Assembly: GCA_947258555.1 (NCBI GenBank)
Contig: CAMYJF010000017.1
Coordinates: 1 to 64,000, forward strand
From: an uncultured Eudoraea sp.
GTDB lineage: Bacteria; Bacteroidota; Bacteroidia; Flavobacteriales; Flavobacteriaceae
Reading direction: 5' to 3'
Length of the DNA stretch: 64,000 nt
The first letter of the stretch is position 1. Each line of letters starts with the position of its first letter. Below, one piece after another: positions 2,711 through 42,887 of the stretch. The position numbers and the translations under genes are program-made. The notes under the pieces were generated by a model that was given only the letters and a program-made list of their open reading frames with translations, was not told the origin of the DNA and ran no database searches.

Positions 2711-2906
2711 GATTTGCTATTTAATAGGGTTATACAATTCAAAACAAATCATCTATCTGTAGCCTGTACAGGAGGAACTGTTAATTGGAGGAATGGAGGA
2801 ATGTAATGCTTAGAAAGATGGGTGGGAGAAATTCTGTATCAAGGTACAAAATTTTCTTCTTGGATCATGTTAAAGAACGAACCCGGGTGTTGTTTATATT
2901 ATAATT

Positions 2907-3220
2907 GCACTTCGACTGCGCTCAGTGTGACATAATGCCCTAATTGTGACATGGGAAACTTCAGGAAATGGGAAGTTGCACTTCGACTGCGCTCAGTGTG
3001 ACATAGTACCCTCAATAAGATATGAGAAATTGCACTTCGACTGCGCTCAGTGTGACATAGTACCCTCAATATGATATGAGAAATTGCACTTCGACTGCGC
3101 TCAGTGTGACATAGTACCCTCAATATGATATGAGAAATTGCACTTCGACTGCGCTCAGTGTGACATAGTATTCTCAATATGATATGAGAAATTGCACTTC
3201 GACTGCGCTCAGTGTGACAT
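2907..3220. repeat. Six-copy tandem array, core CTTCGACTGCGCTCAG, 54-bp period
   Basis: A 27-bp core beginning GCACTTCGACTGCGCTCAGT starts at 2907, 2978, 3032, 3086, 3140 and 3194. The last five copies are spaced exactly 54 bp apart and the first spacing is 71 bp. The intervals between copies 3 to 6 are nearly identical too (TAGTACCCTCAATATGATAT and so on), so this is a true tandem repeat with a 54-bp unit rather than dispersed sites. CACT and AGTG near the ends of the core can form a weak imperfect hairpin. The same 16-bp core occurs twice more, in opposite orientations, around the GIY-YIG gene at 3463-3780. A 92-codon frame through the array on the minus strand only translates the repeat and is not a gene. 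Confidence 0.95.
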
Positions 3221-3427
3221 AGGATCCTTATTGTGACAGGCCATTAGTCAATTTGGGAAAGAGTTTTTCTGATCCATGGCTATATAGGCAGAAGAAACAT
3301 GTTATGCTATTGCGTAAGGGAAAATTAATTTCCAGGATGTCGGAGTATGATTTGTCAAAACCCTCAAGTTGTATTCAATACAGTCTAAACCCCTCGAGCA
3401 AGAACGAATTCTGCTAATCAACCGATA

Positions 3428-3817
3428 TGTCAGGCTGAGCGCAGTCGAAGCCCAATTTAACGATGAAGTTCTATTATGTTTATATCCTACTTTGTTCCGA
3501 TGGGTCCTACTATACTGGCATAACATCCAATCTCGAATTAAGATTAGAATCCCATAAGTCGGGTTATTTCCGTGATAGCTATACGTATCATAAAAGACCC
3601 GTTCATCTTGTGTATTTTGAAGCATTCAATGAGGTTCATCAAGCACTTTGGTATGAAAAAAAGATTAAAGGATGGTCACATACCAAAAAGGAGGCCTTGA
3701 TATCTGGAAGATATGACAGAATACAAATCTTGTCGGAATGCAGAAATGCAACACATTCGAAATACAAGCCAAACAAATAATTCAGGAAGTCATACTTCGA
3801 CTGCGCTCAGTATGACA
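3428..3817. mobile_element. Candidate GIY-YIG cassette bounded by 23-bp inverted repeats
   Basis: The left end (3428-3450) begins TGTCAGGCTGAGCGCAGTCG. The right end (3795-3817) is its inverted copy with two mismatches in 23 positions. Between them lies essentially only the 318-bp GIY-YIG gene. The right end has the same orientation as the six copies of the adjacent tandem array. No obvious target-site duplication flanks the ends. Calling this a mobile element is an inference from the layout; movement has not been shown. Confidence 0.5.
3463..3780 (+). CDS. Small GIY-YIG family nuclease
   Basis: The 105-residue protein is a stand-alone GIY-YIG/URI domain. The motif is carried by YVYILLCSDGSYYTGIT near residues 5-21. 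The conserved arginine lies in LELRLESH at 24-31, and the metal-binding glutamate is probably in YEKKIKGW, so the catalytic residues appear intact. Proteins of this size fall in the YhbQ/UPF0213-like group, not in UvrC, which is much longer. After about residue 85 the tail (LSECRNATHSKY) is outside the fold. The gene has no operon partner; it lies between inverted copies of the repeat that also forms the adjacent array. A role in cutting or spreading that repeat is my inference. A second member at 26522-26812 also sits among repeats. Confidence 0.85.
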   Translation: MKFYYVYILLCSDGSYYTGITSNLELRLESHKSGYFRDSYTYHKRPVHLVYFEAFNEVHQALWYEKKIKGWSHTKKEALISGRYDRIQILSECRNATHSKYKPNK

Positions 3818-3883
3818 ATTGATGTTGGTGTGTAACTAGGTCCTTGAGCTAACAAACATTCGAGAAAATCGACATATTTTGTT

Positions 3884-26297: not shown

Positions 26298-26322
26298 ATC
26301 AGTATTTTACATTGCCCTGAGT

Positions 26323-26479
26323 GTTGCCCTCGATACATTTCGGCTTTGCCGAAACTAAGGGAAGTGTTGCCCTCGATACAGTTCGGCTTTGCCGAACCAC
26401 TCGGGCAACGATAATAGGGCATCGAGTGGTCCCGCTATTGGCGGGAGTGTACCGAGATGACCGATCACTTTAATACAGT
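26323..26479. repeat. Nested-palindrome repeat array, left part
   Basis: Two element types alternate. Type A (26366-26409) has an outer stem GTTGCCC/GGGCAAC and an inner stem GTTCGGC-TTT-GCCGAAC. Type B (26410-26463) has the stem TCCCGC/GCGGGA within outer pairing CATC/GATG. A shorter A-like variant (A') occupies 26323-26365. After B another A' begins (CACTTTAATACAGTTCG) and breaks off at 26479, where the sequence leading to the GIY-YIG gene starts. The array resumes at 26821. Confidence 0.85.
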
Positions 26480-26521
26480 TCGCTTGTCTAGGAACCCCCA
26501 GTAACCCAGCTATTCGACCCC

Positions 26522-26812
26522 ATGCCAAAAGGCTATATGTACATTCTGAAATGTTCTGATGATACGTTTTACACGGGAAGCACCATTGATCTGCAACGAA
26601 GGTTAAAACAGCATCAGCAGGGTGCCGGTGCAAATTACACCCAAAAACGGCTACCCGTTGAACTCGTTTATCATGAAGTATTCCCAAGAATAGACCACGC
26701 TTTTTATCGTGAGAAACAAGTGCAAAATTGGAGCCAGAAAAAAAAGGAAGCATTAATCAATGGTAATTTTCAAGATCTGCCACAATTGTCAAAGAAAGAT
26801 TTTGGAAGGTAG
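26522..26812 (+). CDS. Small GIY-YIG family nuclease (second copy, diverged)
   Basis: The 96-residue protein is a single GIY-YIG/URI domain: YMYILKCSDDTFYTGSTIDL near 5-24, the arginine in LQRRLKQH, NYTQKRLPVELVYHE, and the glutamate in REKQVQNWSQKKKEALING. It is clearly related to the protein at 3463-3780 (shared YILxCSD, YTG, LVYxE, EKxxxxWSxxKKEALI), but the flanking repeats belong to a different family. Its catalytic residues appear intact. The gene is embedded in the palindromic array, with repeat A resuming 8 bp after its stop codon. Translation probably starts at the ATG at 26522. Function in repeat maintenance or mobility is inferred from position only. Confidence 0.85.
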   Translation: MPKGYMYILKCSDDTFYTGSTIDLQRRLKQHQQGAGANYTQKRLPVELVYHEVFPRIDHAFYREKQVQNWSQKKKEALINGNFQDLPQLSKKDFGR

Positions 26813-26820
26813 GTGGCAAG

Positions 26821-27062
26821 GTTGCCCTCGATACAGTTCGGCTTTGCCGAACCACTCGGGCAACGATAATAGGACATCGAGTGGTCCCGCCATTGGCGGG
26901 AGTGTACCGAGATAACCGACCACTTCAATACAGTTCGGCTTTGCCCTGAAACTCAGGGAAGTGTTGCCCTCGATACAATTCGGCAAAGCCGAATCACTCG
27001 GGCAACAAAAACCGGACATCGAGTGGTCCCGCTATTGGCGGGAGTGTACCGAGATGGCCGGC
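26821..27062. repeat. Nested-palindrome repeat array, right part
   Basis: The order is A (26821-26864), B (26865-26918), A' (26919-26962), A (26963-27006), B (27011-27062), all in the same orientation as the left part. In the second A copy the inner stem is reversed (TTCGGC-AAA-GCCGAA instead of TTCGGC-TTT-GCCGAA). In the last B copy the outer stem is extended by matching changes (CCGG before CATC, CCGG after GATG). These features suggest that the ability to fold is being kept. Confidence 0.85.
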
Positions 27063-37591: not shown

Positions 37592-40153
37592 CTACCTGAC
37601 AAAGCGGTAAGTTACCTTTATTAAAAAGGTATCATCAGCTTCTTCGCCCAGGATCTGTGTGTCCAGGCTCCTTCCTAAGGAATCGAGTGGATCTCCAAAA
37701 CCGGTCACGCCGCGCGACCAAACAAGAAAGATCTCTGAACCAGGTATATATTCCCAACGAGCCACAAGATTAGAACGAAATTGAACAAATGAGAAGTCAG
37801 GATCATCAATGGTGTAGTCTGTATTTCCGTCAATATCTTCATCTATGGAATAGGCTCCGTCTGCAAAAGCGATCTGGTTTGGTTCCAATAAGGTTACACG
37901 CTCATTGAGATCTTCCGCAACGGAATTATTCACGTAGTTAAAATTCGAATATATACCTCTGGAAATAAATGGTTCCCCATAAAACTGCACACTCAGGTTG
38001 GGGTTAATACTATAATTAAAGCGCACTGCCGTACTGATAGTCTTTTGATCGATATCTGCCATTATGTACCTGGGATCTGCACCGAATGCCGTTTCTGTTA
38101 CATACTGGGTTTTATTTACGTTGGGCCTATAGCTCGCATTGATCGACAAATTGAAGGAATCAAAAGGTTGAAACCCGAGTCGTACCACGTAACGTTGAAA
38201 AGTAAAGTTATCCTGCCGTGCCTGGCTACGTACGTAACCCAGGGTAAAGAAGAACTTCTTGCTGCGATCCGATCCAAAGAACAAATAGGCAAAATTTTCA
38301 TCTGACCACCTCCAACGTGGTCCCCCACGCAAAACTGTATTGGAAAAAATACGGGGTTTATGCCCAAATCCTACTTCTGTAAACCAACGGTTTTGATACG
38401 ACATTTCGGCTTCTAATTCGTATTGGATCCGATTATAATTTCCTTCAAAATCATAGGAACTGAACTGCTCGGCACCTATTCTAAAAGAACGATATAATGA
38501 TGTTGGTTTAAGCCACAGATAGTTAACATCTACATATTGAATGATCTCGTCTGTCTGTCTCAGGAATCCAACATCATTCAATTCCAATTCCGGGGATCTC
38601 CATATGAATCCGCCTTCATACCTCCAATTGCCGCCCCCATCTTTACCATGGGAAATTCTACCTGCTGTTCCTGTAAGCGCAGTACGAGTCGGATCTACTT
38701 CTACATGCCCTGCATCGGTACGCTGAAAAAGGTGGGTAAGACTTTCTTGAGTTCGCAATATAGACTCTTCACTTCCACTTACATGACTGGCAATTATATT
38801 TCCATCAATGAAATAATTGCGATTCTTCCACATATGCCTGAAATCTATTCCCCCGGTATAGGCAGATGTGTGAAGAAAATCCAGATCACCTTCTATTTTC
38901 CGGTTCGTGGAAGTAAGCATACCTCCAATAAAGGTGTTCCTTTCATTAAAATCTTTTTGTGCACGTATAACGGCATAATTGGTAAGTGGCTCTACGATCT
39001 CTTCCCGCCTGTCTCCATTGGAATCTATCTCCGCATTCATTTTACCGGTTACACTTTCCAATACCCCAATGGACCAACCGTTTTTGGTTTTACCAGAGAA
39101 CTTAGCCGCACCCAGGATAGTGGAATTATTTGGAATATCCACAAATTCATCTGATCCTATATCGGGAAAACCCGCCGGGTTCCTGCCAATTCGCCTGCTG
39201 TAGAAGAGGTTATCATTCCCATTGGCAAATTCAAAATCAAAGATGTTCTTATTCTCAACAAAGAAAGGTCTGCGCTCCTGGAAGAAGATCTGAAATCCGT
39301 CTAAAGCAATGGCTCCCGGATCTGCGTCTACCTGACCAAAATCAGGATTGACGGTCAGGTCAAGTGTCAGGTCGTTCGTAATACCAATTTTGGCATCTAA
39401 ACCGCCATTCAAAAGTACATCAGAGCCATCTCTAAAGGGATTCCCGGCTTCTTCAGGATACGTATCCCATTGAGTAACCATAAAAGGTTGAATTTCTAAC
39501 TGTTTTTGGGGCTCAATATTCTTAAGCCCGTGCAGCTCCCCAAATTCACTTACCCAGCCAGGTGCTTCCCTGGGAATTCGATCCCAGACAGACCATTGGT
39601 TTTCTCGAAATATCATCCGAGCCACCTGCAAGCCCCATACTTGTTCATCTGCTTTTCCAAATTTGATCTGGCTCAGCGGAATTCGCATTTCAGCTGTCCA
39701 GCCTTCTTCATCAATGTTGGTATCTGTATACCAAATAGGATTCCAACTATCATCAGAATTATTCCCGTTATCAGAGATCAACTCATCTCCTTTCACGCCT
39801 GCCGCATTTCTCCTCGATAATCGGGCGTCGATCTCATCTGTATCTGATTCAAAGCAGCGAATTGCGACATATAAATTCTTTTGATCGTATAAGATCCGGA
39901 ATTTAGACTGCTCATCAGGGGGAGTATTCTCATCCGGAAGCCATTCGATGAATTCTCCGGCCCATTCGGCATTCTCCCAGGCATCGTCGGTCAATAATCC
40001 ATCAATAACCGGAGGTGTGGCATTCCCCACTGCCATAGCTGTATAAACTCTTGGCGGTGTAAGCTGAAGGCTATCCTGGGCTTTCAGATATATGGATGTA
40101 AAGAGAAAAAGTGTAAAGAAGGTTGCAGTGGCAACACGGTTAGTCAAGTTCAT
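37592..40153 (-). CDS. DUF5916 outer-membrane protein with CBM9-like N-terminus (copy with internal deletion)
   Basis: The 853-residue protein has a signal peptide, an N-terminal CBM9-like beta-sandwich (ATPPVIDGLLTDDAWENAEW and GWTAEMRIPLSQIKFGK) and a long C-terminal DUF5916 barrel-like region. That region has the family hallmarks LTLDLTVNPDFGQVDADPGA, DGFQIFFQERRPFFVENKNI and the final TFLIKVTYRFVR. The neighbour at 40236-42887 is a close paralogue in the same order. Compared with it this copy lacks about 26 residues in the CBM9-like domain: the paralogue's stretch from GFEGDWIEFNIDSYYD to FSFTVT is missing between LSRR and AAGVKGDEL. Function is unknown; it is probably a surface-exposed or outer-membrane protein. 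Confidence 0.85.
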   Translation of the reverse strand: MNLTNRVATATFFTLFLFTSIYLKAQDSLQLTPPRVYTAMAVGNATPPVIDGLLTDDAWENAEWAGEFIEWLPDENTPPDEQSKFRILYDQKNLYVAIRCFESDTDEIDARLSRRNAAGVKGDELISDNGNNSDDSWNPIWYTDTNIDEEGWTAEMRIPLSQIKFGKADEQVWGLQVARMIFRENQWSVWDRIPREAPGWVSEFGELHGLKNIEPQKQLEIQPFMVTQWDTYPEEAGNPFRDGSDVLLNGGLDAKIGITNDLTLDLTVNPDFGQVDADPGAIALDGFQIFFQERRPFFVENKNIFDFEFANGNDNLFYSRRIGRNPAGFPDIGSDEFVDIPNNSTILGAAKFSGKTKNGWSIGVLESVTGKMNAEIDSNGDRREEIVEPLTNYAVIRAQKDFNERNTFIGGMLTSTNRKIEGDLDFLHTSAYTGGIDFRHMWKNRNYFIDGNIIASHVSGSEESILRTQESLTHLFQRTDAGHVEVDPTRTALTGTAGRISHGKDGGGNWRYEGGFIWRSPELELNDVGFLRQTDEIIQYVDVNYLWLKPTSLYRSFRIGAEQFSSYDFEGNYNRIQYELEAEMSYQNRWFTEVGFGHKPRIFSNTVLRGGPRWRWSDENFAYLFFGSDRSKKFFFTLGYVRSQARQDNFTFQRYVVRLGFQPFDSFNLSINASYRPNVNKTQYVTETAFGADPRYIMADIDQKTISTAVRFNYSINPNLSVQFYGEPFISRGIYSNFNYVNNSVAEDLNERVTLLEPNQIAFADGAYSIDEDIDGNTDYTIDDPDFSFVQFRSNLVARWEYIPGSEIFLVWSRGVTGFGDPLDSLGRSLDTQILGEEADDTFLIKVTYRFVR

Positions 40154-40235
40154 AGAAAATCTATTCCGGTCAAAAGTAAAAAAACCCCTATCCTTCGCAT
40201 GGGTATTACGAATTTTTTAACATCGCATTTATGCA

Positions 40236-42887
40236 TTAAAATACAAATCGGTAAGTTGCTTTTATCAAGAAAATATTCATGGGCTTAGAATCCCCAAACA
40301 AGGTGTTGTTAAGGCTCTCTGTTAGTCCTAATTGTGGATCCCCGCTTTCAGAAAGATCCTGGGACCAAACTAAATAGAGTTCGGATCCGGGAATGTATTC
40401 CCACCTTAAAACGAGATTGGATCGAAATTGAATAAATGAAAAATCGGGATCGCCAAATGTAAAATCGGTCACCCCATTCATATCCTGATCTACAGAATAA
40501 GTCCCATCGGCAAATTGGATCTGACCATCATTATAAGGGGTAATTCGATCTTCAAAAACCTCAGCCATTGGAGCACTTATGTACTTAAAATTAGAATACC
40601 TACCTCTGGAAATAAACGGTTGTCCCCAATACTGCAAAGTGAGGTTGGGGTTGATCGTATAATTGACCCGCAATGACATGCTAAAAGTTCGCTGATCGAT
40701 CTTTCCGTTGAGGTAAAGAGGTTGGCCGTTTACCTCTTCAGTACTTACATATTGAAGTTTGTCCTGGTTAATGCTGATATTGGGCCATGCCGAAATACGA
40801 AGAGCGTTAATGGGTTGGTATGTGGCGCCAAATTCTATGCTGTATCTGGAATAGGAATTATCCAGACCTCGATTGCCATTGTGAAAGACTCCAAACCGGA
40901 TCTTCTTCCTACTATCTGTATTGATCCCATTCCAAAAAGAGAATGACGGAGATTGTCGAAGGCGGGGGCCTCCCCTGAGCGCAAAATTATTGTAGCGAAC
41001 CGGGCTGTAATTGAAGCCCATATTTCCAAACCAATTATTTTTAAAATTCGCCCAGGCATTGGTGTTGAATTGGAGTAAATTGTGATTCCCGCCATAATCC
41101 CAAGCTGTCCAATGGTTATAGTTAAGACCGAGCTGCCTGAATACATTATCGGGTTTAAGTGTCCTGTACCCTACCCAGGTATAATGCCGGATGTCATCTG
41201 CCTGGCGTTGAAAGCCAATATCATTCAGTTCCAGTTCCGGTGATCGCCAGGTACCTCCGGTCTCAAAACGCCAGTGTCCGTCTCCTATCTTTCCCAATTG
41301 TAAATTACCTCCTGTGCCTGTCAAAGAAGTCCGGGTAGGATCTACTTCCACATGGTCTGCGCCTTCCCTTTGGAATAAATGGGTAATAGACTGCTGGGTG
41401 TTGAGTATGGCCTCTTCGCTTCCCCTGACATGACTCCAGTTAATATTACCGCCAACGTACCAGACGCGATCTTTCCAATTGTGTTTGAAATCAAATCCTC
41501 CGGTATACGCTTGCTTGTGCAGAAAATCAAGACCCTCTGTTAAGTCACCTCGGTTCGTAGCTGTAAAGATCCCTCCAATATAAGAGTTACGATCATTAAA
41601 ATCCTTTTGTAATCGACCGACAAAATAATTCGTGAGGGGTTCAACAAGTTCTTTACGTCTGTCGCCATTATTGTCAATTGAAGCAAATCGCCTGTCTGTT
41701 ACACTTTCCAGGACACCAATAGACCAACCATCTTTAGTTTTGCCACTAAATCGTGCGGCACCCGCTAGGGGTGTATTTTCTGGTATATCTACGTATTCGC
41801 CTTCTGTGGTCGATGGGAATCCCTGAGGACGACGGCCCACTCTTCGCGAATAAAATACATTATCCGACCCAAAGGTATTTCCGGCATTTGAGCGCGAAAC
41901 CCTAAAATCAAAGATGTTATTATTTTCTACAAAAAAGGGGCGTTGCTCTCTGAAAAATATTTGAAAGCCATCCAGGGCTATCGCAGAAGGATCTGCTTCC
42001 ACCTGACCGAAGTCGGGATTGATCGTCAAGTCTAGTGTCAGGTCATTCGTAATACCAATTTTCGCATCCAATCCAGCTGAAAAATCTCCATTATTTCCAT
42101 CCCGAAATGGATTTCCAGGCTCTGCTTCAAAGCTCTCTACTTTACCAACTGAGTACGGTTGTATTTCCAGCTGTTTTTGAGGCACCAGGCCTTTGAGTCC
42201 GTGGAGCTCACCAAATTCACTTACCCAACCCGGGGCATCCTGGGGAACCCGTTGCCAAAGGGAGCGTTCTTCTTCCCTGAAAAATCGTCTGGTAGATTGG
42301 AGTCCCCATATTTGGTTATCTGATTTACTGAATTTGATCTGACTAAGCGGAATACGCATTTCGGCTGTCCAGCCTTCTTCATCTACTTGCGACTTGGCAT
42401 ACCAAATTGGGTTCCAGCTGCTATCCCAATTATTCCCGTTGTTGGAAATAAGTTCATCTCCTTTTACACCAGCAGCAGTGACGGTGAAGGAAAACGCTGT
42501 GCGTTTGTCGTAATAACTATCAATATTGAATTCTATCCAATCTCCTTCGAAACCATCTCTTCGGGATAAACGTCGGATAATTTTGTCAGGTTCCCCATCA
42601 AGGCACCTCACACCTATGTACAGGTTTTTGGCATCATAGAGGATCTTAAATCGTGTCTGATAACTGGGTGGGGTATTTTCATCCGGTCTGTTCTCAATAT
42701 ATTCTGTAGTCCAATCTACTAAGTCCCATGCCTGGTCATTCAAACTACCATCTATAGCAGGTGCGGGGGTTGTTCCGATGGAGGCAGTTGTATATATCCT
42801 TTTCTGGACCACCTCTGTGGAATCTTGTGCATATGTGGCGGAAAGTGTAAAAACGGCAAGAAACAGAAATCTGCTCTTTAGGCACAT
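40236..42887 (-). CDS. DUF5916 outer-membrane protein with CBM9-like N-terminus
   Basis: With the ATG at 42885-42887 the protein has 883 residues and a signal peptide of the same form as its paralogue (MCLKSRFLFLAVFTLSATYA). The frame extends 12 codons further up to 42923, but that would place a hydrophilic stretch before the signal. The CBM9-like domain is complete here (APAIDGSLNDQAWDLVDW, then FEGDWIEFNIDSYYDKRTAF). The DUF5916 region shows LTLDLTINPDFGQVEADPSA, DGFQIFFREQRPFFVENNNI and the end IFLIKATYRFVF. It precedes the second copy by 82 bp, which points to a tandem duplication. Confidence 0.87.
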   Translation of the reverse strand: MCLKSRFLFLAVFTLSATYAQDSTEVVQKRIYTTASIGTTPAPAIDGSLNDQAWDLVDWTTEYIENRPDENTPPSYQTRFKILYDAKNLYIGVRCLDGEPDKIIRRLSRRDGFEGDWIEFNIDSYYDKRTAFSFTVTAAGVKGDELISNNGNNWDSSWNPIWYAKSQVDEEGWTAEMRIPLSQIKFSKSDNQIWGLQSTRRFFREEERSLWQRVPQDAPGWVSEFGELHGLKGLVPQKQLEIQPYSVGKVESFEAEPGNPFRDGNNGDFSAGLDAKIGITNDLTLDLTINPDFGQVEADPSAIALDGFQIFFREQRPFFVENNNIFDFRVSRSNAGNTFGSDNVFYSRRVGRRPQGFPSTTEGEYVDIPENTPLAGAARFSGKTKDGWSIGVLESVTDRRFASIDNNGDRRKELVEPLTNYFVGRLQKDFNDRNSYIGGIFTATNRGDLTEGLDFLHKQAYTGGFDFKHNWKDRVWYVGGNINWSHVRGSEEAILNTQQSITHLFQREGADHVEVDPTRTSLTGTGGNLQLGKIGDGHWRFETGGTWRSPELELNDIGFQRQADDIRHYTWVGYRTLKPDNVFRQLGLNYNHWTAWDYGGNHNLLQFNTNAWANFKNNWFGNMGFNYSPVRYNNFALRGGPRLRQSPSFSFWNGINTDSRKKIRFGVFHNGNRGLDNSYSRYSIEFGATYQPINALRISAWPNISINQDKLQYVSTEEVNGQPLYLNGKIDQRTFSMSLRVNYTINPNLTLQYWGQPFISRGRYSNFKYISAPMAEVFEDRITPYNDGQIQFADGTYSVDQDMNGVTDFTFGDPDFSFIQFRSNLVLRWEYIPGSELYLVWSQDLSESGDPQLGLTESLNNTLFGDSKPMNIFLIKATYRFVF

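Follow-up and report, generated by a model that had tools for sequence, protein, structure and literature searches.

The GIY-YIG nuclease gene at 26522-26812 of the window (the whole stretch of 64,000 nucleotides analysed here) lies between nested palindromes, and elements of the same class recur beside homologous genes. We consider it probable that this locus represents a single copy of a two-component system that resembles REPIN/RAYT, in which flanking and dispersed nested palindromes would be paired with a GIY-YIG nuclease and not with an HUH transposase. REPINs are dispersed inverted pairs of REPs with a RAYT partner (PMC3116915). The pairing of gene and repeat described below is well supported. 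From the sequences, we infer that the nuclease cleaves and mobilises the elements. To our knowledge, no GIY-YIG hydrolase has been reported to disperse REPs.

Structure of the palindrome array

The features of the locus are as follows.

26305..27062, no strand: gene-plus-array island, missing from the orthologous interval of G001, a genome of the same genus (exact ends not resolvable)
26323..26362, + strand: leftmost A element, truncated (sequence reading, module alignment)
26366..26409, + strand: A element, forward copy, GTTGCCC-TCGATACA-hairpin-CACTC-GGGCAAC (sequence, fold, core search)
26420..26459, - strand: B element, reverse copy of the same class, CATC-TCGGTACA-hairpin-CACTC-GATG (sequence, fold, core search)
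26460..26484, + strand: start of a decayed forward copy, A'; the left-array homology ends here, 37 nt before the ATG
26522..26812, + strand: GIY-YIG nuclease gene, single domain, 96 aa (Pfam PF01541, E=1.1e-18; active-site residues and dN/dS)
26821..26864, + strand: A element, forward copy, 8 bp past the stop codon (sequence, fold, core search)
26875..26914, - strand: B element, reverse copy (sequence, fold, core search)
26915..26962, + strand: A', decayed forward copy (sequence reading, module alignment)
26963..27006, + strand: A element, inner stem altered to ATTCGGC/GCCGAAT (sequence, fold, core search)
27017..27056, - strand: B element, reverse copy (sequence, fold, core search)

Direct reading of the sequence bore out the first-pass annotation, which had described A and B elements alternating on both sides of the gene, a left array broken off inside A', a right array resuming at 26821 and thus a gene within a continuous repeat pattern. 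The 117-nt module on the left shares 96% identity with its counterpart beyond the gene, and its homology ends at about 26484, within the decayed A' copy. The A elements of the window are nested, with a 7-bp outer stem, a conserved internal core and a 7-bp inner stem. A and B had been listed as two elements. Both are indeed present; A and reverse-complemented B, however, have in common CTCGRTACA-hairpin-ACCACTCG. They are therefore not unrelated but belong to a single class, of which A is the forward and B the reverse copy, with stems that differ between them. The plan of this class is arm-TCGRTACA-hairpin-CACTC-arm'. Folded as single-strand DNA, the intact copies gave z-scores of -2.9 to -4.5 against dinucleotide shuffles.

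The window's own genome is a 2.73-Mb draft assembly of 104 contigs, whose closest matches suggest a member of the Bacteroidota. A search of the whole of it with TCGRTACN{9,39}ACTCG showed six copies at the locus, in the strict order +,-,+,-,+,-. Away from its gene, the window's long-type element is almost absent from this genome, the one other credible inverted pair being at C47:7099-7184. Among the 60 relatives searched, the exact A+B module was found only at the window locus, and the association with GIY-YIG genes emerges only when cores are compared, not stems. No GTAG tag was found in the window elements or in the listed element flanks, and no CGTC/TGTC/CCTC tag in the A and B elements of the window.

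Since the elements are intergenic and fold, and some are close to stop codons, the palindromes might function chiefly at the RNA level, as terminators, mRNA stabilisers or protein-bound structured RNA, the link with the gene being regulatory. An Rfam scan, however, matched only the tRNA and none of the palindromes. Moreover, both orientations are represented among the elements, which form long arrays as well as dispersed pairs, and their strand-specific core and tag fit recognition as DNA at least as well. A role mainly as RNA is therefore very improbable.

Two further regions of the window are worth noting. The region 2854-3881 is a second island of this kind, in which a GIY-YIG gene (match at 3472-3690) is accompanied by a different palindrome, CACTTCGACTGCGCTCAGTGTGACA, arranged as a 54-bp tandem array. 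In the region 38901-42477, direct repeats have diverged to 70-77% identity; they are separated by about 2.65 kb and probably reflect a gene duplication.

The GIY-YIG protein

The 96-aa protein matched PF01541 over residues 3-75 with 67.7 bits (gathering score 22.6). T5orf172 was a weak match overlapping this domain, and no second DNA-binding domain was found in the Pfam search. Among 84 homologues, G19, R27, H31 and E64 were present in 84/84, Y17 in 83/84 and Y7 in 82/84. The dN/dS of the homologues was about 0.04-0.17 where synonymous change is unsaturated. The low dN/dS and the near-invariant active site indicate that the nuclease is maintained by purifying selection, and it appears to be catalytically intact. 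Among solved structures, the UPF0213 proteins come closest to it in sequence (PDB 1zg2, BH0048, E=1.2e-16).

Elements beside homologous genes

Loci were retrieved solely on the basis of protein similarity, 52 of them from named genomes and others from 149 family genomes. Elements of the same core adjoined the homologues in Bacteroidota, Ignavibacteriota, Kapabacteria and Calditrichota. The palindromes in the flanks of these relatives follow a common plan: a variable outer arm, TCGA.., a variable inner part, ..CTC and the complementary arm. Elements were counted strictly, each arm having to pair perfectly over 5 bp or more, and flanks were taken as the sequence within 300 bp of the genes. The 48.2 kb of gene flanks contained 119 elements (55/83 loci). 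Control windows of the same loci, at a distance of 1.2-1.5 kb and totalling 42.4 kb, contained 5, and dinucleotide shuffles contained 1. In 138 elements chosen by the core alone, outer-arm pairing was 0.744, compared with 0.369 after permutation (sd 0.019), and inner-arm pairing was 0.848, compared with 0.380. These 138 elements have 59 distinct outer and 74 distinct inner arm sequences. The stems covary while the core TCGRTACA/CACTC stays fixed.

The elements around the genes are mostly oriented '- gene +' (28, against 6 for '+ gene -'), which equals tags outward. This layout, a gene between outward-facing elements, recurs across phyla and thus fits a gene/repeat system rather than one chance insertion. 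A link of GIY-YIG genes with nested palindromes of more than one repeat sequence, already noticed in the first-pass annotation, is upheld by the recurrence of elements beside other GIY-YIG genes, which is the main result of this study. The opposite case, the gene at the same place without elements, was not found. A chance origin of the association was rejected on the basis of the shuffles, the control windows and the reversed patterns given below.

At five loci (L034, L046, L050, L056 and L003), the GIY-YIG frame enters the adjacent palindrome, so that the C-terminus is repeat-encoded. Tandem copies of the gene, two or three at each locus, were seen at G132:C1:200565-201352 and G015:C15:34555-35863, where the genes were checked to be identical and represent local amplification of gene plus array, and at G167:C1:1005437-1006329, where the copies have identical match scores. 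The L056 contig is labelled as a Rhodobacteraceae MAG; its gene is 61% identical to the window protein and its element is of the Bacteroidota type, which points to misbinning or transfer. Gene remnants in gene-less array units are a weak hint seen at L018, this locus only, and do not enter the argument here.

Core type and protein phylogeny

Four core types were distinguished: a long type with an inner hairpin, a 12-nt type (TCGACNNNGCTC) and two 11-nt types (TCGACNNNCTC and TCGAGNNNCTC). On the protein tree, the core types require 11 changes, compared with a mean of 34.5 after shuffling (0/200 as low), a clustering to which near-copies add. The clade of the window protein has the same long core in hosts from Flavobacteriaceae, Saprospiraceae, Kapabacteria, Ignavibacteria and Calditrichia, and several core types occur within hosts of one family, even within the window's own genome. 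The core type thus goes with the protein and not with the host. In the window's own genome, the dispersed TCGACTCCGCTC and TCGACTGCGCTC elements match those flanking GIY-YIG genes on C47/C7 and C17.

On C47 and C7 (L003, L004, L220), GIY-YIG genes and element pairs stand repeatedly just before paralogous genes that start with about MIKFFRHIRKDLMETGKTGKYLKYAIGEILLVVIGILIAL. In the same genome, three more divergent small GIY-YIG genes (L005, L007, L008) each closely follow a tRNA gene or what appears to be the 3' end of one; no TCGA..CTC element was found near those of L005 and L008.

Co-occurrence in genomes

In the 149 family genomes, nearly one per genus, a window-like gene was present in 58 and absent from 91. 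The mean number of elements per genome was 20.8 with the gene and 4.1 without it (p=1.2e-12, genomes treated as independent). In genomes without Y1 transposases, the corresponding numbers were 18.4 and 3.2 (p=1e-9, genomes again treated as independent). Reversed control patterns gave 88 matches in total over the 149 genomes, against 1581 real ones. The element number correlated with the PF01541 count with rho 0.57 and with the Y1 count with rho 0.19. A RAYT/Y1 enzyme was considered as the partner and rejected, given this weak correlation and the absence of any Y1_Tnp/RAYT (PF01797) match at E<=1e-5 in the window's own genome. About a quarter of the genomes without a window-like gene hold at least 5 elements, which are perhaps served by other GIY-YIG subfamilies.

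Dispersed elements often form inverted pairs, e.g. in the relatives G134 and G149. Besides the long-type pair on C47, the window's own genome has short-type pairs at C7 and C24. The dispersed short-type pairs have their tags outward in G149, and the C24 pair has its tags inward.

Relation to CGTC-tagged REPs

CGTC REPs, which include dRS3 of Neisseria and RPE-4/RPE-6 of Rickettsia, were reported to lack a dedicated transposase, and the question was left open (Di Nocera et al. 2013, PMC3733652). These REPs have stems of 8-9 bp, loops of 4-5 nt and a tag at one end, and their dimers mostly have the tags outward (PMC3733652). In our elements, GAC[AG] was found exactly 5 nt past the core in 47/129 long, 10/55 twelve-nt and 10/30 eleven-nt elements. 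It is strand-specific, being absent on the mirrored side, and was found in several Bacteroidota clades. Read on the other strand, GAC[AG] equals the CGTC/TGTC tag that Di Nocera et al. described. A CGTC/TGTC/CCTC tag is also present in other element families of the window's own genome (TGTCAGGTCGAG.., TGTCACACTGAG..) and in sister clades. The window elements themselves belong to a clade without the CGTC tag, and we therefore do not file them as CGTC REPs.

The relation was further analysed with GIY-YIG genes from PLSDB records, mostly proteobacterial. Tagged hairpins numbered 27 in the 300-bp flanks and 1 in control windows; they were found at 12 loci, mostly with at least one on each side of the gene. 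Textbook CGTC REPs lie by GIY-YIG genes in Neisseria, Azospirillum, Rhizobium, Shinella, Aeromonas, Photobacterium, Sphingobium and Novosphingobium; examples are CGTCATTCCCGCGCAGGCGGGAATCCA (dRS3) in Neisseria and CGTCATCCTCGGGCTTGACCCGAGGATCCA in Shinella and Neorhizobium. By eye, the gene was also seen to have repeats beside it in Sinorhizobium, Methylobacterium and a cyanobacterium, each with repeats of its own. No repeats were seen beside yazA of Bacillus subtilis, two Cupriavidus genes and one Sphingomonas gene, and the Vibrio rows were scored as repeat-free from the strict flank count. In a quick tree, in which the YazA row has a long branch, the window protein falls outside a clade (support 97) that unites YazA with the Cupriavidus and Vibrio proteins. 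Three records listed as plasmids in PLSDB (NZ_CP119140.1, NZ_CP119142.1 and NZ_CP030101.1) are chromosome-sized (about 2.2 Mb for Neisseria and 2.9 Mb for Listeria).

It could also be supposed that the nuclease is a host housekeeping enzyme, a structure-specific repair protein resolving palindrome cruciforms, and that the repeats spread otherwise, linkage with the gene being favoured. Slx1, YhbQ and YazA are in one family (PMC7017083), and the low dN/dS and conserved active site would agree with such a function. The distribution of the gene is patchy, however: a genome may hold as many as 10 PF01541 copies, identical copies occur in tandem, and the gene was gained or lost within a genus. It is the YazA relative without repeats that lies within an operon-like gene row. 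A housekeeping function is thus quite unlikely. We consider it more likely than not that GIY-YIG nucleases are the missing dedicated enzymes of CGTC-type REPs and of the larger class of palindromes with a TCGA..CTC core. They would then form a second, HUH-independent system of REP mobilisation across Bacteroidota, Ignavibacteriota, Calditrichota, Proteobacteria and Cyanobacteria.

Empty sites

The gene had been thought to be inserted into a pre-existing array, replacing part of an A' element. The comparison with G001 does not support this: the orthologous interval between the antiporter and tRNA-Gln genes has neither gene nor array. Both neighbours of the intergenic gene are kept there, and the flanks are 88-90% identical. 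The other GIY-YIG island of the window, at about 2854-3881, is likewise missing whole, with 21 nt left in G001 and about 48 nt in G002. Since both islands are absent whole in genomes of the same genus, gene and array behave as one unit; at these two loci they were gained or lost together. On C24, a contig with no GIY-YIG match, there is an element pair (L166) that spans about 92 bp and is cleanly absent from the orthologous G001 site. This is the one clean solo empty site among those tested, the flanks of L147, L163 and L170 being too diverged.

These observations bear on another possible interpretation, namely that the gene is a homing-like selfish gene. It would target pre-existing palindromes, cut gene-less copies and be copied in by repair through repeat homology, the repeats being its target and not its partner. 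The two modules that enclose the gene do share 96% identity, the gene breaks up a decayed A' copy, the repeat arms would supply homology for repair, and GIY-YIG is a classical homing nuclease fold. However, an array-without-gene allele was not found and the sister genome lacks both, while the core type tracks the nuclease phylogeny. The protein of 96 aa has no second DNA-binding domain, its best NCBIfam match, to a group I intron endonuclease, is far under the cut-off of that family, and neither an intron nor a split conserved target gene was found at the locus. We therefore regard homing as unlikely.

Possible mechanism

In the two-component system that we prefer, the nuclease would recognise the conserved internal core (TCGA..CTC), the 3' tag or both in an extruded hairpin or cruciform, and would cut at the core or the tag. 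Repair or replication of the broken end by the host might then copy and expand the elements, and the products would be arrays next to the gene and dispersed pairs elsewhere. No covalent intermediate is formed when GIY-YIG enzymes hydrolyse DNA, so that joining would depend on host functions; this is the weakest step of the mechanism.

Comparison with known systems

A full-text literature search found no paper linking GIY-YIG genes with REP-type palindromes; most subscription journals and preprints lie outside its coverage, and earlier publication is possible. The core sequence had no match in the literature. REPs are among the commonest repeats of bacterial genomes, and GIY-YIG is a candidate enzyme for CGTC REPs in several phyla. 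Because the candidate adjoins the CGTC repeats and tracks their sequence type, the question of their dedicated enzyme is directly testable. If the proposal is correct, it would also give a role to a common small gene that is annotated only as 'GIY-YIG nuclease family protein'.

CGTC REPs resemble the elements described here in that a strand-specific tag occurs in the elements of several Bacteroidota clades and in that they flank related GIY-YIG genes. They differ in having a short stem and loop with no nested core, whereas the A elements of the window are nested and its A and B elements are untagged. The UPF0213/YhbQ/YazA proteins have the same fold and size as the window protein, but the relatives of the UPF0213/YazA type in Bacillus, Vibrio and Cupriavidus have no such repeats adjoining and form a separate supported clade. 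GIY-YIG homing endonucleases, free-standing or intron-encoded, share the catalytic domain and a gene embedded in its putative target. The window gene, in contrast, comes without a second DNA-binding domain, an intron or a split host gene, and a homing endonuclease has one target whereas genes of the window type are associated with many dispersed repeats.

The closest likeness in organization is to REP/REPIN-RAYT. In both cases, short palindromes flank a dedicated enzyme gene and occur as dispersed inverted pairs genome-wide, the palindromes differ between enzyme lineages, and a genome can hold several enzyme/repeat families. The GTAG tag of REP/REPIN-RAYT is absent here, however, and many of the present elements consist of two nested stems around the TCGATACA/CACTC core. 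The enzyme of REP/REPIN-RAYT (TnpA-REP) is an HUH/Y1 tyrosine transposase, whereas that of the window is a GIY-YIG hydrolase. If the proposed system is real, the nuclease partners of palindromic repeats would come from two or more unrelated folds, HUH and GIY-YIG among them.
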